This document shows, piece after piece, positions 15,807 through 38,557 of a stretch of 64,000 nucleotides of DNA. The notes beneath the pieces are model-generated. The model worked only from the letters and a program-made list of their open reading frames with translations. It was not told where the DNA came from and made no database searches. Where the stretch lies: assembly GCA_029959195.1 (NCBI GenBank), contig CP114123.1:2356001-2420000 (forward strand). Direction: 5' to 3'. The position numbers and the translations under genes were made by a program. The first letter of the stretch is position 1. Every line of letters starts with the position of its first letter. This stretch comes from Dictyophora rubrovolvata (taxonomy: Eukaryota > Basidiomycota > Agaricomycetes > Phallales > Phallaceae).

Positions 15807-16794
15807 TTCATTATTGTCATAAATATGTACTACTTGTTGAAGGGATGACTAGTGTGTTTCTGTTCTTCTGCCCCTTTCCGTTTTAAACTTCTGCGCAAAG
15901 TAATCACCTTTAATTTAAGTAAACTTTGTAATGATGCCATACATATACAGGGCTTGCTGCTTGATGCCAGCTATGCAAAAAGCGGCATGAAAACTTGCAT
16001 GTCTTAGCCCAAGATAATACACTCAGAACGTGTTGTAGGTTAAGTCCCTCTCAATCACGGATGTCCCTGTGGCGCCCATTAGTGGGCCCAATGGAAGAAA
16101 CCCCGCTCACTTTATGTAGCATGCAGGCATGACTCACTGCTGTATTCCTTCCTTGGAGGAATTTTTCTTTCCAATCTCGAAAGGGAAAGGTTTGAGAGTT
16201 TTTGATTAGTCCAAGTTTATTCTGTGTTCAGTGCTCCTGCACAGTACGTACATTCACTATGCTGTTCGCATTATTTTTAGTGTCGTGGAAAACCTACAGA
16301 CTATCACCTGTAACTATATACAACACTGAGTCCGTAGGTAATATTCGATCCTTGTGGGAGGTGATGGAGAAGGGAAGAAACGTTCTTCGTAATGATTATA
16401 AACTTATCTTCTACGAATGTATCGGGTTCTATAACGGACGACGCACGGGACAACTCAATGTCTTTAAGGAAATCTTGCGGAACAACGTAATCGACCTCCA
16501 CGAAATTTGATGACGGGTTGTGGAGGAGCATTTACGTTCATGAGGGAAGGAGATTGGAGGTTAAATTGACCTCCAATCATGCTTTGCCCTCTGTCGTTCG
16601 TTGACACTTGCTGAACAAGACTGTGAAGGTAAACCCGGCGTCGTCCGGTGAACGTTGATAAAGCCAAAGCCATCCTTAGGATCGAAGACAGCAACGTTAT
16701 CTGGGGTAGTACAGAATGTCACCTAGAATGACACGATTGAGAAACAGCGGTTTATGTACATTGAATAAATCGGATGTGTAAAAAACAAGGTTGT
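15807..16794. other. Intergenic region with unrecognised ORF fragments
   Basis: About 990 bp lies between the Ser-rich gene and the Vps68-like gene. On the minus strand two overlapping open segments (16694-16464 and 16531-16304) might be exons of a small gene (MLSSILRMALALSTF..., VEVDYVVPQDFLKDIELSRA), but no splice pattern joins them convincingly and nothing matches a known family. Confidence 0.3.
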
Positions 16795-17491
16795 TTAAAG
16801 TGTCAGGTTATACTCGTATTCTGAAGATGCTTGCTGTGCGAGCCAAAGCACAATCGCCGACAGCATCAACGACACATTCTGCGCCACATTGGCGTATCCG
16901 TAGTATAGGTACCGATCTTCGTATTGTTGAACAATATATTTCAGGACTAAAAGGCTCTGTAGTGGTCGAACAAGGACAAACACAATCATTGGACTGTACT
17001 ATTCAGCGCAGAATGGAAAAGTAACGTACGAGACTTCCAACTAATCCGCCAGCCATGAGCGCAAAGCCAAGGAATAATATCAATCTCGCTCTCCACGCAG
17101 TCGAACTCCAACCACCGCCAAATGAACTTCCATCGTCTCTCAGCTGGTCTTTGTTTATTGAATAGACAATTAACACGCCAAGCGTGGAACATATCCCCGT
17201 TGTCCAGTCGAAGAAGGTGACGTGAACGGGTGGTGTGTCGTACGGTGCGTCAGCAGGTGCATGTGCATGTGCACTTAGTATACAACCATCCCAGAATGTC
17301 CAGTGAGCCAACGCAAACTAAAGCGGATGACCGATGATGTTTTAGTATTTGCCCAATTGTGCAAGGATTAAACTTACTAAGGCACCGGCAAAGTATACAC
17401 CTATAGCTCGTTTATGTTTTGAGAGAGGTAGATTTGGACATGAAAAGACGAAGAGACGGCGAGGATCATAGTCATGGCGGGGAACACCCAT
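16795..17491 (-). CDS. Vps68/TMEM50-like (UPF0220) membrane protein
   Basis: Three exons (17491-17378, 17317-17030, 16956-16795) give 564 nt, 187 residues, matching the roughly 180 residues of yeast Vps68. Four transmembrane segments are visible: VYFAGALFALAHWTFWDGC, ICSTLGVLIVY, LILFLGFALMAGGLVGSL, and VAQNVSLMLSAIVLWLAQQ. The GICSTLG and FALMAGG blocks are family hallmarks. Yeast Vps68 works with Vps55 in sorting from late endosomes to the vacuole. Here that role is inferred by homology. The gene is divergent from the decayed SMC1 locus, with only about 130 bp between starts. Confidence 0.9.
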
Positions 17492-17622
17492 GGTTGACGG
17501 CTGTTGACAGTGCAATGGCTTAGGCGCTTAGACCTTAGATTTCACGCGTCCACAGCAATACGTTCCAGAACGCGTTCTGTACCAATAACCCACCATATGC
17601 CAAACATATATCTCTCATTTGC

Positions 17623-20600
17623 ATGGAAGTATGCGACTTCAGGTCGTACCGGTCAGTTGTTTCACAAAAATCTACTGCTACGTGAGCTGACCTTATCACG
17701 AAACCAGCGACCATCAAGTCATAGGTCCTTTCAGCCAGTTCACCAGCGTAATCGGTCCAAATGGAGCCGGAAAATCGAACGTAATGGACGCCGTCTCGTT
17801 CGTCCTTGGAGTTAAAACTACTCAGCTTCGGAGTAGCCAACTCCACGATTTGATATATCGTGGAAGACGGCTTGCTCGTGAAGGCGAAGATGGTGGCCAA
17901 CAAGACGAAGAAGAAGAAACGCAAGGAGGCGAAGGTACCTCTCAGAAGGCGCGGGTTTTGGCTGTATATGAAGACCCTTCCAAAAAAGAGTGGAAATTTC
18001 AATGAACGTACGTTTGATTTTGGTTTGATTTCAGTCGTTTTTGAGCTTGCTTAGCTCACCTGCCTGGCAGAATTTCGATAAATGGAAACAGCGAATATCG
18101 GCTGAATGGCAACAAGGATCTAACATGTCTAGTCGAGCAAATTAGTGAGTCTCTCGAACTAGCCGTGGAATACGACCAAGCCAAAGCTATGCAAGACCGT
18201 GCAACTGAGAACGCCACCTTCAATTTCACTAAACAATGTGGTATTGCTGGGGAGATTAATTCAAAGAACAAAAGTCCGAAGCTGAGCGTTTTGAAAAGAT
18301 GTGCGCCGAGCGGGTTTGTCCTCCTTTCTCTCTTTATTTGTAACGTTTTATTCACACAGTCAGGATAGGATGCTTTGATTCTCCAAAGGATCCTGTGGAA
18401 GCTTTACTACATAAACTCGAAAATTCAACGGAATAGTCAAGAGATAGAAGCACAAAATGAAGATTTGTCTGCTCTGCGAGAAAGACAGAAGGAATATGAA
18501 GAAAAGTTGGCAGAGGCCCGGGAAGAACAGGCCGGAACCCGAAGCGAAGTCTCGAAACGTGAAAGAAGAGCTCGAAAACAAGAAAAAGCTATGGAAAGAA
18601 AGGTCAGTCTTGTTTGTTATCTGGGCTTCGATATATACCCATAACTTGATTAGCAACCGGGGATGGTAGCTCGGGAAGCGCAAGTTCCTCATTTAGAACG
18701 AAGGTTAAAGTCGGCCAATGACTTAGCCGAAACGACCCATAAAGACGAGGAAAAGCAAGAGCGAAAACTGGAAAGGCTAAAGGGCGAGCTTAATGGTATA
18801 CAAAAGGCCACCGCCGCACAGGGTTCGTACGCAGAGGTCTCCCTTTTCTCTCTGGAAACGCTAACGCGTCTGGGATAGGAGCTTCCAAGGAAACTACTCA
18901 TCAAGACTATTCGTTATCCGCAGAGGATCTTGATGAATATCGGAAACTGTAAACAAACGTTTTACGCAGAAAAGCGGCGCGAATGTCGAAGAAGTCGGAT
19001 CACGACAACAAGTTGAAATCCTTCGTCGAGAAGAAAAGATTCCAGGACGGGCGGTAGCTGCCCTCGATAACAAAATCCAACAGTTCAATGGAAGGGCGGC
19101 AAAGTTAGAGGAGGAACAGACCGTGCTCCAGGTACAGAAGAATGGGGTAGGGTTTCTGTGGTATACCTGTTGTCAAATAAATTGATCACTCGTTTAGTTT
19201 GAACAAAAGGTTGCCGGTCTTCAAGAAGAACTCAAACGCACGAAAGGCCAGCATGAAGAGATACAATCAGAGCGCAATAGAGTAGCGTACGTCCTTGTTT
19301 ACCAGCAAGGTATGGTGGTATTTCAGTCGTAATGTCAGGCGTATTATCTCATTCTCTTTCACAGTACTTGCGCAATCAACAGGCTGGTCAAGCCACGTCC
19401 ATCCCGTTAGACATCATTCAAGCAAAGCCCATCAATGACAAATTCCGTAGTTTCGCCAAAGGCGCAAGACTTGCAGTCGATTGTATACAATTCGACGCGT
19501 CTTTAGAACGGGCTATGTATCATGCTTGTGGCAACGCCTTGGTATGCGATACGATGGAGGTCGTTAAATACGTATGCTATGGGGGGGTCAATGGTTTGAT
19601 TTTCGAATGTTATATACATGCTTCGTTTTCTCAATCTATATCATAGCCGTAACGTTAGAAGGGACCATCATTCATAAAAGCGGACTGATTACTGGTGGTC
19701 GTAGTACACACAACAACAACAACAAGTGGGAGGAAAAAGATATTCAGTGTAGGTTTTATTTCTTGTTACGTGGGTCGTTTGTGGCAAGTTCTGAGAGAAC
19801 ACCTTATAGCGTTGCACAGGCAACGTGATGCCCTGCTCTCTGAGCTCAAAGAAATCAACAAGACGAAGCCGAGAGCCAAAGGCGACGAGACTTTGGTTGC
19901 TGAGGTCAATCGTCTGGAGTCTTCGTTAATGATAAGTAAAGATGAATTGGTATATCGGTTTATATTAAAGTTTGGAACTGTTTGGGATTGACTTTTCCGA
20001 CAGGTTGCGTGCACGCATAAGCTGACCGGGGTCAAAAAAGAACTTACGAAGCATTGGCCTGAACTTGAAAAGGTATGTGACTAGTTCATTTACGTTTACG
20101 TTTTTCATTGAATAGAGATGCTTCTCAGATGACTATGTTACATACAAGGCCTCAAAAACGTATAAAGGAGCTAACCGACATCATTGATGCGGCCGAAGAC
20201 CAAATATTTCGCAGCTCCTGCCGCAAAGTTCAAGTTTCTCATATCCGTGGATTTGAAGAGCGACAATTGAAAGCGTCCCAGAAGGAAACCGAACTGCGAT
20301 TACGATTTGATACCCAGATTGCTCGACTGAACCATCAGTATGTTTCACCTCTCATACCTGACTCTTCTAATTGAAATGTCCTTTCTTTTAAATAGAACCA
20401 AGTTTGAAGAAGATTCGTTGCAAGCTCTGAAAGATCGTTTGCAAACACGAAGTAATACAGCCAAAGAACACAAGAACACCGTTTCTAAACTCCTAGCATC
20501 TAAAAAGGCCGTTCAAGAAGAACTAAATGACGACCAAGTTGCTATTGACGAAATCCGCGAAGAGTTAAGAAAACGCTGGAAGAGAAGACGACGGCTTTGG

Positions 20601-21975
20601 ATGAGGTCAAGCGGGCGGTAGGCGGGTCGAGCAAAGCTCTCGACGAAGCTTTGAAAGACGTGCATCTAAGGTACTTTGAATAGCCTTTTATAAAAAAACG
20701 TGCGCTCAGCTGTGCTTTCCGTTTGTAGAATGATGAGATTGAAAAGCTAGCCTCAGAACGGTCCGGTATTTGCCGCAAATGTCAGCTGGAGGAAATTCCT
20801 CTGCCACTGCTCCACGGAAACCTGAAAAACGTTCCAATGGAAGAGGTGCGACACCTTCTCCATATTGTGCTCTGTCTATACAACTTCACACATCCAGAAT
20901 CTTCGAAATGAGGTGGCAATGGACGTAGGTGACGAAGACCATACACAGCGGCCCAAGGAAGTTAACGATTATGGTCTGGAAATCGATTTCAGCCCATTGG
21001 AAGATGATGAGTGTGAGGTACGTAATGAAGTTATACCGCATTACCTTATATGTAGCTTATTTTTGCTTAGGATGGTCCTACTGATGTCGGGGCCGAGTTC
21101 GACACTGCAGTTGCTAAGCTCAACACTGACATTGAACGCATGGTTCCCAATATGGAGGCTATGGAAAAGCGTGTTCTCATAGCTATCAATGTTTATAATG
21201 AATTCAAGGCTGGACGATGTTAAAGCCAAGCTGGCTCAAACCGAAAAAGAAGCCGACAAAGCTCGCAAAGGGTCAAAAACCGCCCAAGAAACGCAGGTAC
21301 TGTGGTCGATTAGGATGCTTCCGACGCTTTCTCCTGCAGGTGTGACCTTTTCAATCGTGCCTACAACCATATAGCAGAACGTATAGACGAGGTGTATAAA
21401 GATCTCACTAAAGGCAAAGCAGCTCCTATGGGTGGTGTACTTAAGTTTAGAAGACAATAAGGTTTGTCGTCTATTCTGGATGAACACCTAAACTTACTCT
21501 GCTCAAAGGAACCGTATTTGAGCGGGATAACATATCATCCCATACCACCTATGAAGCGATTTAGGGACATGGAGCAACCGTTTGGTGGTGAGGAGACAGT
21601 TGCCGTACTTGCACTCCTCCTCGTTATCCATAGGTATGAACCACCCCTAGTCTTTCGTTGCCTGGTGCCAATACTTCTTTTCTGTTAGTTTTCACCCGTC
21701 TCCTTTCTTTGTGCTGGACGAGGTTGATGCTGCGCTAGACAATACTTATGTCGCCAAGATAGCCAACTACATTCGAAGTCATGCATCAGACGAGTTTCAA
21801 TTCATTGTCATCAGCTTGAAAGGATCATTGTACGAGAAAGGGACTTCTCTCGTCGGAATATATCGTGATCAGGAGGTTAATAGTTCTCATACATTAACGC
21901 TAGATGTAGGAGACACTCTTGTCATATATTCCTCTTTTTCTGACCTTCTCATAGCTCACCCAATATGATCCTTAG
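17623..21975 (+). pseudogene. SMC1 cohesin ATPase gene, nearly full length but decayed (copy 1)
   Basis: SMC1 is a cohesin ring subunit. Almost the whole gene is recognisable, with many introns: EVCDFRSYR, Walker [10 protein letters not shown] (about 17757), the first coiled coil, the hinge (LRNQQAGQATSIPLD, CGNALVCDTMEV), the second coiled coil, Walker B FFVLDEVDAALDN (about 21706), and a C-terminus HTLTLD..LTQYDP ending at TAG 21975. Several lesions argue against function. About 40 residues are missing after EYRLNG (about 18103). There is a frameshift near 18263 inside GEI..FKEQKSEAERF and a TAA codon at about 18948 where copy 2 has CAA. About 350 bp of pre-hinge sequence present in copy 2 is deleted at 19310. 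The ABC signature reads FGGEE rather than LSGGEK. It could be a recent pseudogene or one member of a mosaic pair. Confidence 0.85.
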
Positions 21976-22308
21976 CCGTTGAAGATATTGTTATTTGTCC
22001 GCCTTTGTGATATTAATGAAACAGATAGTCAAAATATATTATCGTATAATCATGAAAAATCAGATGTGCTAATAGTACTTGCTAGGAAGTGATTTCATGA
22101 AAATAAATGTGAAACAATCTGACATCCAAAATTCAAATGCTTAATATACGTATAAGAAGATGAAGCTGGGGTCATGATATGCCGAGATTCTGCTAAGCCT
22201 AGGACATGATAGCTATCGGGTCGAGAATTATTAATACGGGACCACATTTTCATACTCGCAATAAAAGCAAATTCTTTATTTCAGCTTCGAGAATACTTGT
22301 GCATTACT
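21976..22308. other. AT-rich convergent 3' spacer
   Basis: A 333-bp AT-rich spacer between the SMC1 copy and the copper radical oxidase, which are convergent. No feature was recognised. Confidence 0.5.
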
Positions 22309-24432
22309 TTACAATGGAACACCTTGATCTGGGACAGGTGGAGATGCGCCGGTTCCAATCATAACATGACTACCAGTACTCCACACGCCATCAACAGTAA
22401 CGAAAATAAAGCCTTAAGAGCAAGTCAGTATTTCGGATTGAAAAAATAATAATAACGATTATCCCACCTGGTCCGGGTGGATATACACGGTTGTTTGGCG
22501 GACTCGTCAAAGTCACAGATGTCTTGTCAGAAGACAGCTTTGCGTCCATGAAGACTAGCCGTTGACTGGAGTGGAAGGCGTGAGACGAAAAACCAAGATC
22601 CATCAATGCGACTGAAAGAAAAAGCAGGGTATTATATCATGTTCTCCATGATTAGTGAAAATAAGAGTACCTTGCATATTCGACACATCCAAGTCGGATG
22701 GAATGTTGATATCGAATGAGAACTGTTGATTGAACAGAATTTGCGCAGGAACATTCGAAAGCACAGGACGAGGTGAGGATATGAAAGGTGGATTAAGATA
22801 TTCTACACGGAATTCACTGAATTGAAAATAGAAAGACAATGAGGTTTGCGCATAATAAATCCGAGTGCAAGGGGCTTACGTATGGAAAATAGTGTCGTTG
22901 ACAACCATCTGATTTGGATTAGATCCAGCAATGAAGACGTTGCTAAAGACGGTCAGTTGAAAGTTAGACTAGAACACCATCTTAGAACACGTACCCTGAC
23001 GGTGTCAAAGTGACAGATGAATGGTACAATCGCGGAATGTCGGTTGTAGGCAGGTCTTCGTTGCTGATACGTTGACCGAGGGGTGCATTGGGTGTATACA
23101 GCTCAGGACGAAGACTATAACCATCGTCAGCAAAAGCTGTCAGCTGTCAAAAGGAAAAGATGGTTACATACACTGGATGATCAGCGTTAGAAGCACCGAT
23201 GGGGTCACTAGTCGAGTTGATAGCAGCATAACCCGTCCGTCCACCATTTGTGATGAGCAATTGGCCATTAGGAAGAAGGATCAACTCTGGCATAATTCGA
23301 GGCTCCAACATGTGCTCAACGATCCATCCTTGCTTGATACCTTCCGGTGTCAGTGTTATCCGACTGCATTGGTTCGAAGCCGGATCTTGAGAAGACAGTT
23401 CTTCGGATGGGACTTGATCGCTATGTGCGCTACCACCGCAAACTAAAACCTCTGGTGTGAAGTCTGGTGGGGAGAGAGGGAGAAGGGCCGCTGTCCCGTC
23501 AAATGGGTTGGTGACTCTGACGCCGTTCGGGATATCGGGAAGAGGCGTCTCGGTTTGAGCTTCAATGTCGTAGATGATGGACTGGTTATTGGCTACTATG
23601 AAGACTTTTCCGTCTGGGAGTGCAAATCCTCTTTTGGAAAGGACGGCGAATCAGAGCTAAGTTGTGTTTGAAGTGAAATTACAAACCCACCTTGGGAACA
23701 AGTTTACAGGCACAGTCCTTGCGAGGAAAGAAGAGTTTCTAGGCACGCCACCATCTTTTGATGGGAAGAATTCGAAGCTGTTGACAGGATCTGTGTTGAA
23801 AAAGGGTGTGTCTTCATGCATTCCACCAATGATCATCTAGAAAGCGCGGGTTAATGAGTGATTTTCACTATTGGATAATAGAGGAACCTTACCAATGAAC
23901 CGTCAAAGATTCGTAAGGAAGAAGTGTACCATCTCGTAGTAGCCAAATGGATTACCGCGGGATCGTCAAACAGGGTGCATCCGACACCATTAGGGTCAGT
24001 GCAAGGCTCAAAGATACGGATTCCCATTCGTCCATCAATTGCCGCTGTGATGGCGGGAATATTACCACCAACACTAACCTTGAATAGGATTGAGAAATGA
24101 AAAGAGAAGAGAAAGAACAAAGCAAAACTAACCATTGTTCCATTACTCAACAACGCCCCCGAAGCACAAAAGCTGTCAGAGACGACATTGAGAGCTGTAG
24201 CAGTATTGGTTTCAAAATTCCAAAGGGCACCCCATGCTGAATGGTTGTTGATCATGAGGGGGTCATTTGAAGCACGGTCGAAGATGATTGCGAGAGTAGG
24301 TGAGACGACAATAGCTTCTAGAGCCAAGACACCAGTCGTTCCGTTCTGGACAAAATGCCAGCTCGGGTTGGTGTTTGCGGCTCTACCTAGAGCAAAGAGA
24401 CTTAACAGGATGCTAAAGTGCTTCTTGAACAT
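22309..24432 (-). CDS. Copper radical oxidase (glyoxal oxidase-like), secreted
   Basis: These enzymes oxidise small aldehydes or alcohols and release H2O2 outside the cell, feeding lignin-degrading peroxidases. Nine exons with eight GT-AG introns of 52-63 nt (first 24132-24079, last 22467-22413) leave 1668 nt, 555 residues. The upstream open frame starts at TTG, so the ATG at 24432 is used, giving a signal peptide ([18 protein letters not shown]). The motifs of the radical-copper site are all present: [15 protein letters not shown] (cross-linked Cys), [20 protein letters not shown] (radical Tyr), [20 protein letters not shown] (Tyr-His ligands) and [18 protein letters not shown] (second His ligand near the C-terminus). 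Kelch-type beta-propeller repeats lie between. It looks intact. Confidence 0.93.
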
Positions 24433-27125
24433 CAGGCTCAAAGACTTTGTAGGTGTCTTTTGGCCTTGCTTGCGCCTTTAAATACGGTTAAATTGAACGT
24501 GTGAGACGCCCAGACAAACGAAACTCAGGGACAGAAATGAAAGAACCGCACTGCGCAGCAGCGAATGCTCAGTGTTTGCAAGTAGGCGAGCAGGTATTAG
24601 ATCGCGAAATGAAAAGACGGGCTTCAGACGCGAAGGCATGGCTGTGAGAAACGGACTAGCGATGCCTAAACAGGTAAAGCACCAAGCAAATTGAACGATC
24701 CTAGGCAAAGATCTCTCAAGAGAAGCTTTGATGCATACCCAGGAGAAGGCAACCATGCGAGCAATGAGAGTTGGGATGGCCGTTGTGTGAAAACACTTGA
24801 AACTGCTTTCGCTTAGCGCGTTTCGGAGTTATCCGTGAGAAGTAGAGTCAATAAGATGAGGAGCCGTTCAGTTCTCTACAACGTTCCATACTCAGTGAAC
24901 CAGACAAAGACACGATGCTTGATTGGATATGGAATCCGGATAAGACGTTTATCCAAGTTGGATTTGTAAGGAACCTTTTAAGGTTCAAAGACTATCCTCA
25001 CGTTAACCAAGAGGTGTCGGCGTGAAGGTCGCTGGAGTGCATGAAATACTAAGGCATAAGAAAGTGAGAGTGTTGGAGAACCTGAATAGCCGCGGAGACG
25101 TGAGAATTGCAAGATAAAGAATGTGCCATCTCTGTCTCTGCAGTTTGCGACATTGGGGTCTGCAAAGATGGTACGAAGGTGTGACATTTCCGCTACGCTG
25201 GTCCCGGTATATGAACGTCAAACGGGGAAGAGAACAGCGTCAGTCGCGGGCCTAACCCAGCTCAAAAGGCTTGAAGTCAAGTTCCGGGAAAGCGTCGAGA
25301 GAGGGATCCACGGTCAACCATATGGACAATTTGAAATCTTCGTACAACTTCAAAGCCAGAGGGCATCCAGAAGACAAAAGCGTCGAGACGAGAGATTAAG
25401 ACAAATGAGGACAGAGAGACCGAAGACCGCTGGTAAAGTTGGACAAAGATCAGCTAACGGGCTGATCTCTGCGATGATATAGTGGGATAGAGTGCGTATG
25501 GTCCTTGGTGAGTGCAGCTGAAAAGCATTGGGGATCTCTTAGTTGACAAAGGATATGTAAACCCAACTGGTTGTAATCAGATGCGAACTCAAAACACAAA
25601 CCTTCTAGAATAAACTTCACATCGATAGACCAGGAGCAGGACCTATTGAATCCGATAACCTCTACTACTTCTGGTGATAAGATCTGTTATAAGATATCAT
25701 AAATAGTTAAGAAAACGTCTAACTGCTCACGAACTATTGGAATGTACCAGCTGAACTCAAAAGTAAACGTTGAATGTTTGCCCTAGCCTCCAATTTGGTT
25801 TGAAATTAGACCGTGGCCACTATTGGATGTAGTGAGGATAAGGAGGTGACGTGACCAGCTATGACGAGGACGATGTGGTACCGGAACAAGACGTTAGGCA
25901 AATGTCTTGCACGCCATGAAACCATCCGCGTCTGAGTATAGTTTAAGGCCCAAAGATTAGCTGGAATGTGATAAGGACTGCGTTGCCAAAACCAGTAGCG
26001 TTAACTTGCAGCCATAGGAACCCAGCACACTTTAAACAAAGCCCAGACCCGAGATGCCTCAGGCGGAAAGCAAAAGTTAAACTAAAGCAAAATGTCGGAA
26101 CCAACCACAAGCTTGTTTGTTTCCAAGGCAGAGAAACTTACAGTGCGCTTCCCGACCAGGACTTGAATCGCCATTGGTAACGAAATAAAGATGAAGCATA
26201 TCGTTTTACAACCAACACATGGTATGAAGGGGAAGGGCAAACGAAGAAACTACTCGAACAGAACAGGTCAAAAGATATTCGGACTAAGAAAAGGCGACAT
26301 TTACGAACGATTGGGCAGGCGGGCAACCGTATATTCGAGATGCTTGCCATCTCACCAAGGTTGGATGCACTGGATAATGGCGACCTAAATGACGCCTAGA
26401 GTCCAATCTTCATTGATGGACCACTCGCCCAAGGAAACTATCACGGAATGAATGGGCCTAGGATGACGCGAAAACGTGAGCAATCATGGGAAAGATATGA
26501 GCGCACAGTGGTGACGTCGTACGTGAGTCTATGAGTTGATAATAGAGAAGGTGTCGAAGTCGATGATAAACATCGCATAACCAGAGTCAATATTTCAAGA
26601 TGGGACTAAGTAGAATAAATGGGTGTAATACCGCGATTTAAGCAGAAAGGAATTGCACTTCTGGTGGACGTAGTACGCTTGAGCGCTTGTGAGCGGCTAT
26701 AAGCTTACATAACGATGACCTAAATGGTTGACAGGTTGGCTTCTGCTATTCCTTGCCTGCCGGTGAACACTTGATCAGGAGTAGAAGAATAACAGTACTA
26801 GTATTAGGAGCACTATTTGAAGGTGTACTACATGTTCTAAATGTCACACAGGGGCCTGAGATCCACGGATAACTGGTCACCGATCACGCACGAAGCAAAT
26901 GAGGAACCGACCACCGTGCAAAATACCAACGTGCGATGTCATATATGATGGTTTGGCGATTGGATTAGGAGACTCTTAGTCCGCGTACAACAAACATTTC
27001 GATAGGCGCTGCCAATGAAAGACCGCTTTAGAACCAGTATTTAGGAGGATAAGAAGGATAAGAAGGAGGCTGAGCTTTGTCCCTTCCCTTAGGTGCTGGC
27101 TCGAACGTCCGGGTGTCCAGCTCTA
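24433..27125. other. Long gene-poor region
   Basis: About 2.7 kb without a supportable gene lies between the copper radical oxidase and ceramide glucosyltransferase. Its first few hundred bases should hold the oxidase promoter. Open frames of 60-120 codons occur (for example 25123-25482 +, beginning at GTG, basic and low complexity), but none has introns, motifs or a convincing start. A short direct repeat (GGATAAGAA twice) sits at about 27046-27064. The region may be eroded repeat DNA, but no element could be named. Confidence 0.4.
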
Positions 27126-28550
27126 ATGCCGTCAATATTGCCCACACAGTTCTGGGCCGTATCTGTTGTCTTTGCGTGGTACATCTTCATTTGGTGTTGT
27201 GGTCTGCTGGGATGGTATGTTGCGTATGTGATCGCACGCCGCTTTCCTAACGTATTTTCTTCAATACTGACTACATCCTTATCTCAAGACGAAGTCTGCC
27301 TCACATACGACGTCCCCGGTCTCTTTTGCCGTCATCGTCACCAGATCAAGTAGAGGGAGTTTCAATCATTCGACCTTTAAAGGGCCTTGACGCCGATCTA
27401 TTCGAGAACGTCGAGTCCTCTTTTAGGCAAGACTACCCTCAGTTCGAAGTTCTGCTTGCCGTAGCGGATGAAAGCGATGAGGCGGTTCCCGTCGTTAAAG
27501 AGCTTATCAAGAAGTACCCTCATGTTGACGCAACATTAATCACAGGCAAGCTCGAGCTTCCTTCTGTCATATTCGTCAGATCCTTTAATGACCTATATTT
27601 CAGGCGAAGACGTTGTAGGCGTGAATCCCAAAGTGAACAATCTAATGCGCCCTTTCCAAAGAGCAAAATACGACATCCTTTGGGTTGTAGATTCAAACGT
27701 ACGACTCACACATAGTGCTCTAGCACACGCCGTCGACCTTCTCGATCCACCAGAGTCCTCTACTGTGCCAGATAAGCCAGGCATACGGAGGATTGCCCTC
27801 GTTCACCATGTTCCCTTCGCTTTTACTAATTCGAACTTTCTCGGTGCACGCATGGAAGAAGCCTTCCTGAACACCAGCCTTGCGAAGATTTACCTTGCCA
27901 TTAACACGCTTGCCGTCGAGCCCTGTGTAATCGGCAAATCAAATCTGTACCGCAAGTCAGATATCAGCCGTTTAGCCGCAACATTCAAACCTCCATCCAA
28001 GTCTCCAAGCCTTCTCCCACCACCGCGGCAAGTTTATGGGTTGGCTGCTTTTGGCCGTTTTCTCGCCGAAGATAATGCGATTTCGGCTGCGTTATGGCGC
28101 GAATTAGATGTTCGCCATACCTTATCTTGCGATGTTGCTGTAAATGTCATCGGGGATATGAACTTGTCTGGTTATATCTCTCGAAGAATTCGCTGGGTGC
28201 GCGTACGAAAGCACATGGTCCTGATCGCAACCCTATTAGAGCCCTTTACGGAATCAGTCCTCTTAGGCCTGCTCGGTGCATGGGCAGCACAATCTCTCTT
28301 TTTGATTCCTTCTTGGGTTTTTCTTCTCGTGCATTTCTCTTTATGGCTTACTGTCGATTTGGATATTCTTTCTAGCCTTGCCGGAGAACCCCTTCCCCGA
28401 GCCAAATTTTGGTCTTTCCTTCAAGCATGGATTTGTAGAGAAATTCTTGCATTCCCTATTTGGCTCTTCGCTGTCTTCGGGAACGAAGTCGAGTGGAGAG
28501 GGCAGAGATACCGAATGTCTTTCCCCGGGGTGGCGGTCAAGGTTGAGTAG
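27126..28550 (+). CDS. Ceramide glucosyltransferase (GT21)
   Basis: This enzyme transfers glucose from UDP-glucose to ceramide at the Golgi or ER membrane, the first step to glucosylceramides. Three exons (27126-27223, 27289-27545, 27604-28550) give 1302 nt, 433 residues. The open frame extends upstream of the ATG at 27126 only from a GTG. An N-terminal anchor (WAVSVVFAWYIFIWCCGLLG) precedes VSIIRPLKGLD and the GT21 signature series: GEDVVGVNPKVNNL, WVVDSNV (D1/D2 region), LAEDNAI (D3) and ISRRIRWVRVRK (the (R/Q)xxRW motif). Two or three C-terminal hydrophobic segments follow (LLGLLGAWAAQSLFLIPSWV). The second intron (27546-27603) is GC-AG with a GCAAGC donor. The gene appears intact. Confidence 0.94.
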
Positions 28551-28720
28551 ATGCCGGGATCATTTTTTGTTATTTTGGGCTACATTTCTTATGCTGTATT
28601 TTACATAATAGTTTGCATTATATATTTTGTTGTATAACCACATCACCATATGAACAATGTTTCTGAAATTTGTCTATTGTCCTCAACTACAATATAAATC
28701 GATCTATTATCTGGCCGGAA

Positions 28721-28760
28721 CTGATCCCGAAATTTGTTCACAATGGACTCTTCTCATGAC
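28721..28760 (+). repeat. 40-bp exact repeat, copy A
   Basis: Positions 28721-28760 are identical to 38518-38557. The repeat includes an ATG followed by codons for MDSSHD, and it lies just upstream of the point where homology to SMC1 copy 1 begins (about 28793). Confidence 0.85.
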
Positions 28761-28792
28761 GTGGAGGCTCCGGCGCTTACTGTTTTGGCCGT

Positions 28793-30885
28793 TCCGCCGA
28801 TGCAAGGTTCGTATGCAGAATCAAGTGTCTCCCTTTTCTCTTTTTGGAAACGTTAACATCTTGGGTAGAAGCTTCTAAGAAAACTGCTCACCAAGACTAT
28901 CCGTTTTCCACAGAGAATTTGGAAGAATATCGGAAACTGCAAACAAACCTTTCTCACTCCGTGGTTTACCATCGCTCAAACAAACACTTTTAAAAATGCA
29001 TGAAAGTGGCCGTGAATGTTGAAGAAGTCGGATCTCGACAGCAAACTGAAACCCTTTGTCGAGAAGAAAAGATTTAAGGACGGGCATTAGCTGCCCTCGA
29101 TAACAAAATCCAACAGTTCAATGAAAGGACAGCGAAGTTAGAGGAGAACAGACCGTGCTCCAGGCACAGAAGGATGAGGTAGGGGACCAGGGGTTCTATG
29201 GTGTACCTGTTGTCGAAAGAATTGATCACTCGTCTAGCTTGAACAAAAACAAGTCTTCAAGAAGAACTTAAGCGATGAAAGGCCAGTATGAAGAGATACA
29301 ATCAGAGCTCAATAAAGTAGCGTACGTCCTTGCTTGCAAACGATGTCAATCTTTCTGCTGAACTTTTTTTTCGGCACTCTAGTCAACGCGAAACCGAATG
29401 GAATATCAAACTACAAGAATATTACTGCGAGTTGCTTCAAGCCGGAGTTGATCAATGAGAATCTGAAAAGGAGGTTAAGAGGAAGGAGGTTTTGCTAGTT
29501 TGCAACGTATTTTTCCAGGTTAGTTGATGACTTTTCGGTTGTCCATTTTAACCTACTTAAAGAGCTCATTTAATAGGTGTTCGTGGTCGAGTTATCAACT
29601 TATGTCGGCCGACACAACGAAAGTTTGAGACTGCCGTATCTGTCATTTTGACGCGTTAATTGTCGACAATGAGAAGACTTCGATTGACTGCATTGAGGTA
29701 TGGTGGTATTTCAGTCGTAATATCAGACGTATTGTCTTATTCTCTTTCACAGTACTTACGCAATCAACGAGCTGGTCAAGCCACATTCGTCCTGTTAGAC
29801 ACCATTCAAGCCGCAAAGCCCATCAATAACAAATTCCGTAGTTGCGCCAAAAGCGCAAGACTTGCAGTCGATTGTATACAATTCGATGCGTCTTTAGAAC
29901 GGGCTATGCATCGTGCTTGTGGCAACGCCTTGGCATGCGATACCATGGAGGTCGCTAAATACGTATGCTGTGAAAAAGGCCAAGAAGTCAAAGGTTTGAT
30001 TTTCGAATGTTATATACGTGCTTCGCTTTCTCAATCTCTATATCATAGCTGTAACATTAGAAGGGACCATCATCCATAAAAGCGGACTGATTACTGGTGG
30101 TCGTAAGTACACAACGACAAGAAGTGGGAGGAAAAAGGTGTTCAGTGTAGGTTTTATTTCTTGTTATGTGGGTCGTTTGTGGCAATTTCTGACAAGTATG
30201 CCTTATAGCGTTGCACAGGCAACGTGATATATTGTACTCTGAGCCCAAAGAAATCAACAAGACAAAGCCGAGAGCCAAAGGCGATGAGAATTTGGTTGAG
30301 GTCAATCGTCTGGAGTCTTTGTTAATGATGAACTGGTATATCGGTTTATATTAAGGCTTGGGACTGTTTTGGGGTTAATTGACTTTTCCGACAGGTTGCG
30401 TGCACGCATAAGCTGACCGGGGTCAAGCAAGAGCTGCAGCATGTCAAAAAGGAACTTACGAAGCACCGGCCTGAGTTTGAAAAGGTTTGAGACCAGCTCG
30501 TTTTTGTTTTTGTTTTTCATTGAATAGAGATGTTTTTTTAGATAACTACGTCACATACAAAGCTTTAAACGTATAAAAGGAGCTAGTCGACATCGTTGAT
30601 GCGACCGACGAGGTGTATAAAGATCGCAAAGCAGCTCCTATGGGTGGTAACCTACCTAAGTTTGGAAGACAATGAGGTTCGTAGTCTGTTCTGGATGGAC
30701 ACTTAAACTTATTTGCTCAAAGGAGCCGTATTTGAGCGGGATAAAATACCATGCCATGCCACCTATGAAGCAGTTTAGGGACATGGAGCAACTGTCTGGT
30801 GGCGAGAATACACTCCTCTTCGCTATTTATAGGTATGAACCACTCCTAGTCTTTCGTTGCCTAGTGCCAATATTTCTTTTTTGTT
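28793..30885 (+). pseudogene. SMC1 partial copy (copy 2), internally deleted
   Basis: This segment is clearly paralogous, introns included, to copy 1 from about 18816 to 21680. It begins inside the first coiled coil (GSYAESS...; EEYRKLQTN), passes through a pre-hinge part absent from copy 1 (GVRGRVINLCRPTQRKFE, DNEKTSIDCIE) and the hinge (LRNQRAGQATFVLLD, CGNALACDTMEVAKYVC). It then jumps at about 30607 from the second coiled coil straight to DEVYKD..KAAPMGG, losing about 1.2 kb. It reaches the ABC signature, here LSGGENT, and ends before Walker B. Both ATPase-head halves are therefore incomplete. There are additional stops and frame changes. Homology stops at about 30885, where unrelated sequence begins. 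Confidence 0.88.
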
Positions 30886-30887
30886 AT

Positions 30888-31085
30888 CAGACACCATCAA
30901 CCTCAACCCCTGGTTCATCGCTATTACTGTCATTGCTCTGCTTGCAATGCATCGTATCACTCGTCCTGATCGGCTGAGCGACATTCCTGGTTCGTAGCTT
31001 GCGAGATATTATGTGTCGTTGCTATTGGGTTGCTACACCGGGACGGGAAAAAGATACTTGCACATTGATCGACTTCATAAGGTTA
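30888..31085 (+). pseudogene. Possible cytochrome P450 N-terminal scrap
   Basis: Immediately after the SMC1 homology ends, one frame reads [20 protein letters not shown] and [10 protein letters not shown], and slightly further LARYYVSLLLGC and LHIDRLHK ending at a GT. A hydrophobic anchor followed by a Pro-rich hinge and an HxxxLHK-like helix is how fungal P450s begin. No heme-binding or I-helix part follows. The assignment is tentative. Confidence 0.25.
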
Positions 31086-31870
31086 GTGTCGCGCTCAACC
31101 CAATCCGACCTATTGATCTTCTAATGATGAGGATAGTGTCAGTTGAGTTTTGGCTTAGATGCTGATAGGGATATAAGCTAGAGGCGACCGCAAAAAAAAA
31201 CAAAGCAACATTTAATACATACTTTAATTATGGTCTTATGAATTCGTCTAAGCACAGTTTCAGAACCGTAACGGTTTCACTCTTTCGGACATGATCAAAC
31301 ATCGTGGTTTCTCGGCAACTATTAGGAACGGGAGAAGCAGTTACTGGGGAAAACAAAGATACGCTTTGGTTTATATAACAAAATCTACTTATCGATCGAT
31401 TTCAGGAGAAAGCCTTCGTTACTCACCCTCTGTTCTGTTTCTCGACAACTTGTACACCGCGGTCCCGGGAGAAAACATTTGCATGGTTCGCTGATTGGAC
31501 ACGGTATAATAACGCGTCTTTTATCCAAGATTAAAAATAATCATTGAGCCTTCAGTAACTTTGTGTGTAGGTCTCGTTTTTGATGCGGGCATATCTAGGG
31601 GAATAAAGAAAAGGATACAGGCCGAGCTGGATGATAGTCATAGGTGAAAAAATGTCAATTGGCCCGGCCGGCCATTCCTTGTGTGACATCAATGGAGTGC
31701 TACGCGTGTGCCACGTGTTATCACACGATCTATGAGCGCCCGTACGTGCCTTGTCCTCGTTGCTTCGTCCCCGTTTCGGGACCGTTTGGGGATCGTTTGT
31801 GTTCTGTCTTTTGTTCAAGTGATATAAAATACTAGTACGTTTGTCATGAATTTCACGCGCTCATTTTGAA
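31086..31870. other. Intergenic region upstream of FunK1
   Basis: About 780 bp without a supportable gene. It presumably contains the FunK1 promoter. A run of A (31190-31200) and an ordinary mix of short open frames are present; nothing else was recognised. Confidence 0.45.
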
Positions 31871-34142
31871 ATGACCACACCATCCATAGTAAACAACTCT
31901 CCCGAGCCCGAAAACGGCGAACTTGCTACGCCGTCAACACCACCGAAAAGCAAGACAGGCAGTCAAGTATTAGACAGCACGCCTATTTCCGGCAAATCTG
32001 CAAGCCAAGACCATAACTCATTGGAAAAGGAAGACAGAGATATCCGACTCAATAAAATGGCGGACGAAATCACTGGCAAAATTGTCGGTCCTATGCCACC
32101 ACGATTATTTTTGGACAGGTATCTACCGGAGACGAACATTAAGTCAAAGCCCTTGGATCTTGATCATTTTCGTGCCGAAATTCAGAAACTGGCATCTTTC
32201 ACAAAGGAGGATACTATGTACCCCGTATTCGTGAGTTCTGCTATCTCTTTTCTTAGGTCGTTGTCATTGAATTTGTCACAGATCGAGAATGTTCAGCCAC
32301 TATGTCCGTCACTACATCTCCGCGACACCCATTCGAAGGACATGAAAGTTTTTGATAAGATCATCATTCGTCCTGACGTCTGTGCTTATACCGACACCAC
32401 CGACCTGGCACTGGGAGATCCTACGCGACCAGATATAACGATAGAATTCAAAGCTGACCCAGGCGAAGATCCTTTTGTCGACCCGGGTGAAAGACCCGGA
32501 AAGACATTATTACGTGCCGCTGGAAAGGCAAAAGAAACTTTGGGCCAAATCACTTCCTACGCGACTGCTCAACAATCGGCTCAATTCAGGACACACGTTT
32601 TCTCAATGCTTGTTCTGCCTTCCTATTTCAGGCTACTCCGCTGGGACAGATCTGGAATGGTTGTTACCGAAAAGATCAAGCTGACCGATTCGTTGCTTTT
32701 TGAATTTTTGCATCGGTATAGTCATGCTACGCCAGAACAACGGGGAGTGGACGTCACAGTGATCAAACCCTCACCTGCTGATGCCGCCGCTGCGCGCGAA
32801 GCCCTCAAGTTATCGCCCAGCGCCACCCTCGTCCAGTTCTCGGTGTCGCCCAACAAAGGAGGATATATTGTCTCTCGTAGAACATACATGGGTTCCGGCA
32901 AGTCCCCCCTGGGTCGTGCTACCAGATCTTTTCAAGCCTATTCGATAAAGCACAAAGCTGTTGTGTTCTTGAAGGAGGCTTGGCGCCTTGCCTCTCAAGA
33001 ACCTGAGCACGAAATCTACGCCAAACTCCATGCGAAAGGAGTACCTTATATAGCGACGGTTATCGATGGGGCAGACATTATGGACCACGTAACACATACT
33101 CAAGACCTCGTGAAAGAGGAACCTGCATGGGCCGTTGATCTGCCTAAGCGTCTGCGCAAACATGTACACTATCGATTAGTTCTCAAAGAAGTCGCGTCTT
33201 CTCTCACAACCTTCTCATCAACAAAACAGCTTGTACAAATAATTCGACAAGCTATTATTGGTGCGTTCTGCTATTCATGATGTTTTCTTCAGTCTCTAAA
33301 AATTTGTTAGCGCATCAAAAAGCTTACGAAGACGCGGGAATCTTGCATAGAGATATCAGCATCAACAATGTCATGATCTTTAACGACCAAGCGCTTCTTA
33401 TTGATTGGGATCTATCCAAGAGTAACAACGAAGACCAAGGGGCAAGAGAAATTGAAAGAACGGTACGAGAAGTTTTTGATATTTTAAGTTCCGTCTATAA
33501 CATGTATATCAGGGCACTTGGCAGTTCATCGCAGCTCGGTTGCTGCGCAAAGTAGTGACGCCCCCAGGGCCTCACAACTTGACGGATGATTTAGAATCAT
33601 TTGTTCATGTCTTGACTTGGATGGGGTTTGTGTATACGGCTCATGCACTCGCCAAGTCAGACCCAGTCAGGTTAACTCAATTTTTGAAAAGCACTTACGA
33701 TGGCTCCTATCGAGACCAAGATGGAAAATATTTCGGAGGAGACAACAAGATCGATCACTTGCTCAATGGGAGACGTCTAGTCGAAGCCGGTTTTTCTAGC
33801 GAAAATCTCTTCCGTTTACTTAAAACGCTGACTAAACGATTTGCCGTCCGGTATGTGGAGCCGTCTTTTTGGGAGACGGAATCCCCCCTTGATATTGCCC
33901 AGAAGGATAAAGTGATCAATGCACACAACGCTAAACTCGAGAGCATTTCGAATTCGCAATGGATAGTCGGAGTATTCGACGAATTTCTTAAAGAAAACTG
34001 GCCCGAGAATGACGCTGCGGTGGATAATAAGCTTGTGCAACAATCAGAAACGACAACAAGCCTGAGCGTTCATTCAGCGAGTAGTCAGCGAAGATCTCGG
34101 GAAGGTACAGATGACGGAAGCCGGAAAAAAATGAAGCCTTAG
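31871..34142 (+). CDS. FunK1 fungal-type protein kinase
   Basis: FunK1 is a kinase-like family expanded in multicellular fungi. Three exons (31871-33260, 33311-33462, 33513-34142) give 2172 nt, 723 residues. The N-terminal 110 residues are Ser/Pro/Thr-rich. The family N-lobe follows (IIRPDVCAYTD, DITIEFK, GQITSYATAQQSAQFRTHVF, SYFRLLRWDRSGMVVTEKI), then VVFLKEAWR. The C-lobe has the catalytic loop GILHRDISINNVM with LLIDWDLS as the DFG equivalent (aspartates present), GTWQFIAARLL, and DDLESFVHVLTW. The tail is long, basic at the end (RRSREGTDDGSRKKMK) and possibly nuclear. Cellular targets of the family are unknown. The gene looks intact and is followed by a relic of its own C-terminal region. 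Confidence 0.92.
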
Positions 34143-34320
34143 ACGTCTCATTTGCATGCTGCGGCCGATAATGAGTTTCACTGAGCGTCAGTGAGGTTTC
34201 TCAATTATTCTGGTTATCGGGGCACATGCTTGGCATGCGTTATGACCGTCACCCTAGGTACATAATGTGCTATGTGTATAGAAAAATAATATGCAATACC
34301 AATGATTATCGTAAAATTGA

Positions 34321-38517: not shown

Positions 38518-38557
38518 CTGATCCCGAAATTTGTTCACAATGGACTCTTCTCATGAC
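38518..38557 (+). repeat. 40-bp exact repeat, copy B
   Basis: Identical to 28721-28760. Here the ATG inside the repeat (38540) opens a frame MDSSHDSFSQPFQVIYAT that continues for about 50 codons. In copy A the frame continues differently (MDSSHDVEAPALTVLAVP). Confidence 0.85.

Follow-up and report, generated by a model that had tools for sequence, protein, structure and literature searches.

A rotated block near a chromosome end of Dictyophora rubrovolvata suggests duplication of the cohesin gene SMC1 through a DNA circle

Introduction

Ordinary duplicated pseudogenes in subtelomeres keep their introns, decay neutrally and are exchanged among chromosome ends, with the parent gene elsewhere. 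Here we analyse two decayed copies of SMC1, an essential cohesin gene, in a 64-kb window near the right end of a 2,430,384-bp contig (CP114123.1) of the Dictyophora rubrovolvata assembly GCA_029959195.1 (28,239,528 bp, or 28.24 Mb, in 11 contigs). We number the contigs C1 to C11 and mark their right and left ends R and L, the window being C7:2356001-2420000; positions given without a contig are those of the window, and its two SMC1 copies are called copy 1 and copy 2. They resemble ordinary subtelomeric duplicated pseudogenes in their introns, their decay, the presence of a parent elsewhere and the exchange among ends; unlike in the ordinary case, the parent is an essential cohesin gene and itself lies near a telomere.

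Closer parallels come from duplications that pass through circular DNA. Chicote et al. (PMC7450558) treat a change of order from A-B/C-D to B-A/D-C as the mark of a circular intermediate in human segmental duplications. As at the present locus, the duplications covered there show a rotated order, donor ends joined inside the copy and copy ends adjacent in the donor; the junctions that could be resolved have no more than microhomology or short indels, and some derivative copies hold pseudogenes. The human blocks measure 22-3918 kb, whereas the fungal block described here derives from about 7.8 kb and is found close to chromosome ends. Among fungi, Galeote et al. (PMC3053389) describe how a 17-kb segment of Zygosaccharomyces bailii was amplified in wine yeasts by way of extrachromosomal circular DNA, likewise with a proposed circle, insertions opened at different points and little or no similarity at the junctions. 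That segment is presented there as horizontally acquired, inserted several times independently and equipped with a functional replication origin, whereas ours is a native segment with an essential gene, of which one rotated insertion was found.

Among the open-licence papers listed by our searches we recognised no report of SMC1 pseudogenes at fungal chromosome ends and none of circle-mediated duplication in basidiomycetes. For the most part the window copies are duplicated pseudogenes of the ordinary kind; what stands out is that copy 1 points clearly to a circle-type origin and that the setting is an unusual one for an essential gene. We consider it likely that copy 1 came, by way of a DNA circle, from a C6 segment carrying a UPF0220 gene (which we take to be VPS68), SMC1 and a neighbour here called gene X, that it inserted near C7R and decayed neutrally, and that copy 2 is a second decayed piece. 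The locus would thereby offer a base-level fungal example of gene duplication via a DNA circle, in which a single near-complete assembly shows the donor, the rotated copy and the junctions. It also puts an essential cohesin gene into a chromosome end that changes fast and in which copies of the gene build up and die.

Copy 1 lies in a block that is a circular permutation of a C6 segment

DNA searches with copy 1 or copy 2 led to C6:2677866-2683185, within which C6:2677868-2682933 yields a stop-free, 25-exon SMC1 model of 1238 amino acids (aa) whose 3' end lies 28 kb short of the C6 right telomere. The original prediction had held that an intact SMC1 should exist elsewhere, and the assembly search bears this out. 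The best PDB matches of the protein are SMC1 (6yuf_A, E 5.4e-291; 7w1m_A, SMC1A, E 1.1e-219), and Pfam recognises SMC_N and the hinge. When this protein was searched against all six frames of the assembly, with 37 of 39 first-look candidates scored, 73 matches were listed; because those other than SMC1 copies, found on C2, C4 and C9 only, are just 22-49% identical, the level to be expected of other SMC proteins, the C6 gene appears to be the sole full-length SMC1 among the matches. It is presumably expressed. All introns of the model are GT-AG except intron 15, taken as GC-AG; the GC may be derived and a weak splice site in an essential gene, or it may be a base error.

Copy 1 belongs to a block longer than SMC1 (16342-22235), and flank searches showed this block to be a circular permutation of C6:2675988-2683807: the gene order is VPS68 - SMC1 - gene X on C6 and X-fragment - VPS68 - SMC1 in the window. 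At the left end, 16342..16377 (plus strand) matches C6:2683179-2683213 with 33 of 36 columns identical and one gap (E 4e-4 genome-wide), followed by a truncated piece of gene X at 16378..16698 on the minus strand (C6:2683472-2683807; 76% identity, E 7e-68). The closing junction of the putative circle, which has no strand, would fall at 16698..16699, where gene X at C6:2683807 is joined to the 3' flank of VPS68 at C6:2675988 with 1 bp of microhomology. From there, 16698-17522 corresponds to C6:2675988-2676819, which is VPS68, upstream of SMC1 on C6, and 17606-22235, the full span of SMC1 homology, corresponds to C6:2677866-2683185. The latter comprises the former coding sequence of copy 1 (17608..21975, plus strand), which is 85-87% identical to C6 SMC1 at the DNA level in three blocks, and a copied SMC1 3' flank (21976..22235, plus strand), where homology ends at 22235, equivalent to C6:2683185. 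The outer ends of the block meet at one point of C6 (2683179 / 2683185), with an overlap of 7 bp. Similarity inside the arms gave scores of 29 (the left-end match, against a shuffled maximum of 15), 182 and 98, reached by 0/500, 0/200 and 0/500 shuffles, respectively. Copy 1 thus combines the B-A/D-C order relative to an A-B/C-D donor, copy ends that are adjacent in the donor and junctions with microhomology or short indels only, as in circle-mediated duplication.

These arrangements can be read as a sequence of steps. A piece of C6 measuring about 7.8 kb at its present length, with VPS68, SMC1 and part of gene X, would have been copied into a DNA circle whose ends were joined with microhomology. 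Opening of the circle elsewhere, a short way 3' of SMC1, and its insertion 52-58 kb from the C7 right telomere would then have given the order X-fragment, VPS68, SMC1. Being redundant, copy 1 would have decayed neutrally while the neighbouring VPS68 frame stayed intact, and the second truncated piece, copy 2, would likewise have decayed neutrally.

The same join of X to VPS68, in the orientation seen at 16698, would also be made by an older tandem of two VPS68-SMC1-X units on C6 that lost one unit, the stretch from within the first X to beyond the second SMC1 having moved to C7 with no circle involved. The ends of such a stretch would be independent, yet they fall within 7 bp of each other on C6 in a unit of about 7.8 kb (about 0.2%, by simple arithmetic), and C6:2674488-2685307, aligned to the window, contains no second unit; we regard a tandem as improbable. 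Template switching in a single replication event (like microhomology-mediated break-induced replication, MMBIR, or fork stalling and template switching, FoSTeS), which copied X first, went back to VPS68 and ran through SMC1, would produce this order without a physical circle and agrees with the 1-bp microhomology at the junction, yet copying must then have stopped by chance where it had begun, which makes this route very unlikely.

The direction of change is indicated by gene X. On C6 it forms a minus-strand reading frame that crosses 2683807 and is 605 or more codons long, still open where the analysed stretch ends (a 319-aa part of it had no Pfam match), and on C7 it is present only as the piece of about 320 bp fused to VPS68. 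Because the frame crosses the joining point on C6, the C6 order is probably the older and the C7 order derived. The spacer between VPS68 and SMC1 argues the other way, being short in the window and in pieces at C6L and C11L (see below) and about 1 kb longer on C6; the simplest reading of the C6 insert of about 1 kb, which was omitted from the three-way alignment, is a later insertion on C6. That the insert belongs to a repeat family was considered and rejected, since a search brought up only the insert itself and an 85-bp match on C10. If C7 instead held the original gene, which later died, and C6 a derived rotated copy, the short spacing common to C7 and the old C6L/C11L pieces would be the older spacer kept on C7. 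That history would have gene X cut and fused to VPS68 on the original chromosome, against an open frame running across the same point on C6, and the C6 branch is the constrained one (below); we give it little credence.

The VPS68-like gene of the block (16795..17491, minus strand, head-to-head with copy 1) has three exons and an intact frame, spliced to 187 aa. Pfam PF05255 matches the C6 VPS68-like copy at E 4.5e-54, and relative to that copy the window gene has no exonic indel and 31 differences (8/4/19 at codon positions 1/2/3), with 10 amino-acid changes, a nonsynonymous divergence (dN) of 0.024 and a synonymous divergence (dS) of 0.179. Its intact 564-bp frame may be taken as mild evidence of use.

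Copies 1 and 2 carry separate lesions and have evolved neutrally

The original prediction placed two decayed, intron-containing SMC1 copies at 17623-21975 and 28793-30885; both are present, at 17608-21975 and 28803-30886, and they align with each other in three blocks of 76-84% identity, far beyond chance. In a six-frame reading, SMC pieces are scattered over several frames. In copy 1, a 170-bp deletion directly after EYRLNG removes 114 exonic bases, or 38 codons (about 40 residues had been predicted), and a 367-bp deletion before the hinge removes 263 exonic bases, taking in exons 10-11 (predicted at about 350 bp). To the single frameshift and stop that were foreseen, the alignment adds further damage: besides the stop (TGA at 18003), the start codon has changed from ATG to ATA, with the next in-frame ATG at codon 6, six other exonic indels of 4, 1, 10, 1, 20 and 5 bp break the frame, in-frame indels occur too, intron 7 is 37 bp shorter, the donor of intron 20 has changed from GT to GC, and the ABC signature LSGGEK reads PFGGEE.

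Copy 2 (28803..30886, plus strand) begins 6.6 kb beyond the block of copy 1 and is 84% identical to C6:2679259-2681085 and C6:2682339-2682645. It runs from the last bases of exon 6 into intron 23, ending just before the Walker B exon, and has three in-frame stops, several frameshifts and a 1258-bp deletion covering exons 16-22; the predicted loss of about 1.2 kb and of everything from Walker B on is thus confirmed, as is the retention of the pre-hinge part missing from copy 1. No disabling lesion in our lesion list is common to both copies within their overlap. Exons 10-11 are kept in copy 2 because its own large deletion fell elsewhere, and the "complementary" deletions, as they had been described, look coincidental; a functional link between them was rejected, since the lesions differ. 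Copy 2 is a separately decayed fragment, and part of its history since it parted from the C6 lineage may be common to copy 1. Its cut 3' end adjoins a dispersed repeat (30887..31099, plus strand), 86-90% identical to sequences at C5:2734358, C5:8021 and C3:2854122, with weaker matches on C11 and C8. An exact 40-base direct repeat occurs at 28721-28760, just before copy 2, and at 38518-38557.

The introns of copies 1 and 2 and of the C6 gene lie at the same positions, in agreement with the proposed DNA-level duplication, and retroposition was rejected on this ground. With parental introns, disabling lesions, no protein constraint on their own branches and an intact parent elsewhere, both are duplicated, non-processed SMC1 pseudogenes.

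Substitutions were polarised in three-way comparisons, dropping columns gapped in any compared copy and the part of copy 2 outside 28803-30884. Changes at codon positions 1/2/3 and in introns numbered 6/3/40 and 39 on the C6 branch, 19/21/23 and 21 on the copy 1 branch, and 23/23/21 and 40 on the copy 2 branch; the contrast between positions 1+2 and position 3 plus introns separates both copies from C6 (Fisher, p 4e-8 for copy 1 and p 2e-7 for copy 2). These patterns show that C6 is constrained and that copies 1 and 2 are neutral. The divergence between copies 1 and 2 is 11.6, 11.9 and 12.5% at codon positions 1, 2 and 3 and 12.8% in introns, a near-even spread that is expected if both have been dead since their split. 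By the Nei-Gojobori method (NG86), with codons gapped or stop in either copy dropped, divergence from the intact gene, which the original prediction had proposed to compute, is dN 0.055 and dS 0.260 for copy 1 (1079 codons) and dN 0.064 and dS 0.333 for copy 2 (451 codons).

The original prediction had also allowed that the pair might represent two haplotypes of one SMC1 that the assembly had combined into a mosaic. Because the copies diverge by 11.6-12.8%, whichever codon position is taken and in introns too, have distinct flanks on one contig, and coexist with a third, constrained full copy on C6 from which each of them differs, a mosaic is unlikely, and with different lesions as well we hold it to be the least credible of the alternatives.

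Two further broken copies, at C5:2746617-2749769 (C5R, minus strand) and C8:5230-8367 (C8L), are 95.5-97.1% like C6. C:G to T:A changes concentrate at CpG in the C5 copy (21/212 against 19/899 at other C/G, p 1e-6) and in the C8 copy (27/210 against 22/894, p 8e-9), as would be expected of methylated DNA. The share of C:G to T:A among polarised changes is 40/47 in the C5 copy and 49/57 in the C8 copy. Copy 2 shows a moderate bias (19/126 against 33/501, p 0.004; 52 of its 107 changes are C:G to T:A), so that an excess of C:G to T:A changes, above all at CpG, like that of repeat-induced point mutation (RIP) or CpG methylation, is found in copy 2 and in the C5 and C8 copies. On copy 1's own branch, polarised with C6 and copy 2, the counts are 3/90 against 26/512 (p 0.60), which gives no support there to RIP-like or CpG mutation as the chief reason for its decay; a cruder comparison with C6 and C5 gives a slight excess, 26/225 against 66/956 (p 0.026), in a count that mixes copy 1 changes with those of the C6/C5 stem. 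CpG is favoured on the branch of the functional C6 gene too, with a lower rate of change (5/180 against 4/900, p 0.009); since the split of copies 1 and 2 its counts are 9/106 against 23/503 (p 0.15).

Several observations weigh against the circle origin, or against the decay of copies from a constrained C6 parent, and have to be set beside the evidence above. Similarity outside the breakpoints scores 15, 15 and 14 on the right, beyond X and before VPS68, slightly more than most shuffles (8, 6 and 26 of 500 did as well), and 9 at the left (reached by 492/500); it stays below the scores inside the arms, is weak and is probably compositional. The left arm consists of the 36-column match and the 321-base, 76% match, which lie 258 bp apart in C6. 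The full C6 frame requires the GC-AG intron 15 (GCTTGT, C6:2680959-2681014), whereas GT is found at this donor in both pseudogenes. Evidence of constraint on C6 after the C5/C8 copies split off is only suggestive (Fisher, p 0.09 with C5 and 0.02 with C8; the C5 branch has 12/10/10 changes at the three codon positions and 15 in introns). NG86 gives dN 0.107 and dS 0.203 between copies 1 and 2 over 356 codons, a ratio of 0.53 and not 1. NG86 ignores the transition excess, however, and simulations without constraint, started from C6 codons and with 81% transitions, yielded a mean ratio of 0.62 (0.36-0.97) for a pair like copies 1 and 2; because 13 of 60 were at or below 0.526, the observed ratio is not contrary to neutrality. 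For comparisons with the C5 and C8 copies the ratios are 0.43 for C6-C5 (dN 0.016, dS 0.037, 736 codons), 0.45 for C6-C8 and 0.65 for C5-C8 (729 codons each), with simulated means of 0.68 and 0.69, and wide ranges, for the two C5/C8-like cases. Finally, silent changes number 79 on the C6 branch and 44 on that of copy 1 (p 0.002), and the tree of the three is therefore not a simple clock-like star (79 versus 61 for copy 2 is not significant, p 0.15); a brief stem common to copies 1 and 2, or sequence exchange between them, may lie behind this.

The SMC1 copies listed lie near chromosome ends

Besides copies 1 and 2, five places bear SMC1 sequence: the C6 gene, C5R, C8L, C6L and C11L. Over 4.07 kb the C5 and C8 copies are 98.9% identical; both have a deletion of 1984 bp and a stop at codon 392, and both have lost the acceptor of intron 21. 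To judge from these shared features, they represent a single dead copy that two ends have exchanged. Short 5' pieces of SMC1 and VPS68 lie at C6:29925-30673 and C11:1962-2710; their SMC1 part is about 70% like C6, and the two surrounding regions match at 99.3% across 3.7 kb. By divergence, the C6L/C11L pieces would be earlier and those at C5R/C8L later than copies 1 and 2, and the other SMC1 pieces would have been shed to these ends at those times and swapped between them.

Arrays of TTTAGGG/CCCTAAA, the so-called plant-type telomere repeat, were found at 7 of the 7 contig ends read (of 22 ends). By subtraction, the block of copy 1 lies 52-58 kb and copy 2 43.5-45.6 kb from the right end of C7, and in all matches listed SMC1-derived sequence is at most 58 kb from a contig end; the 22 end zones of 58 kb make up about 4.5% of the genome by arithmetic. 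A subtelomeric essential cohesin gene might, as a tentative extension that we think doubtful, be a recurrent source of circles or fragments that re-insert at other chromosome ends, the dated series of dead copies (C6L/C11L, then copies 1 and 2, then C5R/C8L) all stemming from one locus that still works and is still unstable.

Other parts of the window also have relatives elsewhere in the genome. A block with a fungal-specific protein kinase (PF17667) at 31094-34318 is 95% like C2:3129542-3132814, which lies 16-20 kb short of that contig's right end, and a stretch holding a glycosyltransferase family 21 gene (27004-28657) has an 82% copy at C7:2219886-2221548 and a 74% copy on C1.

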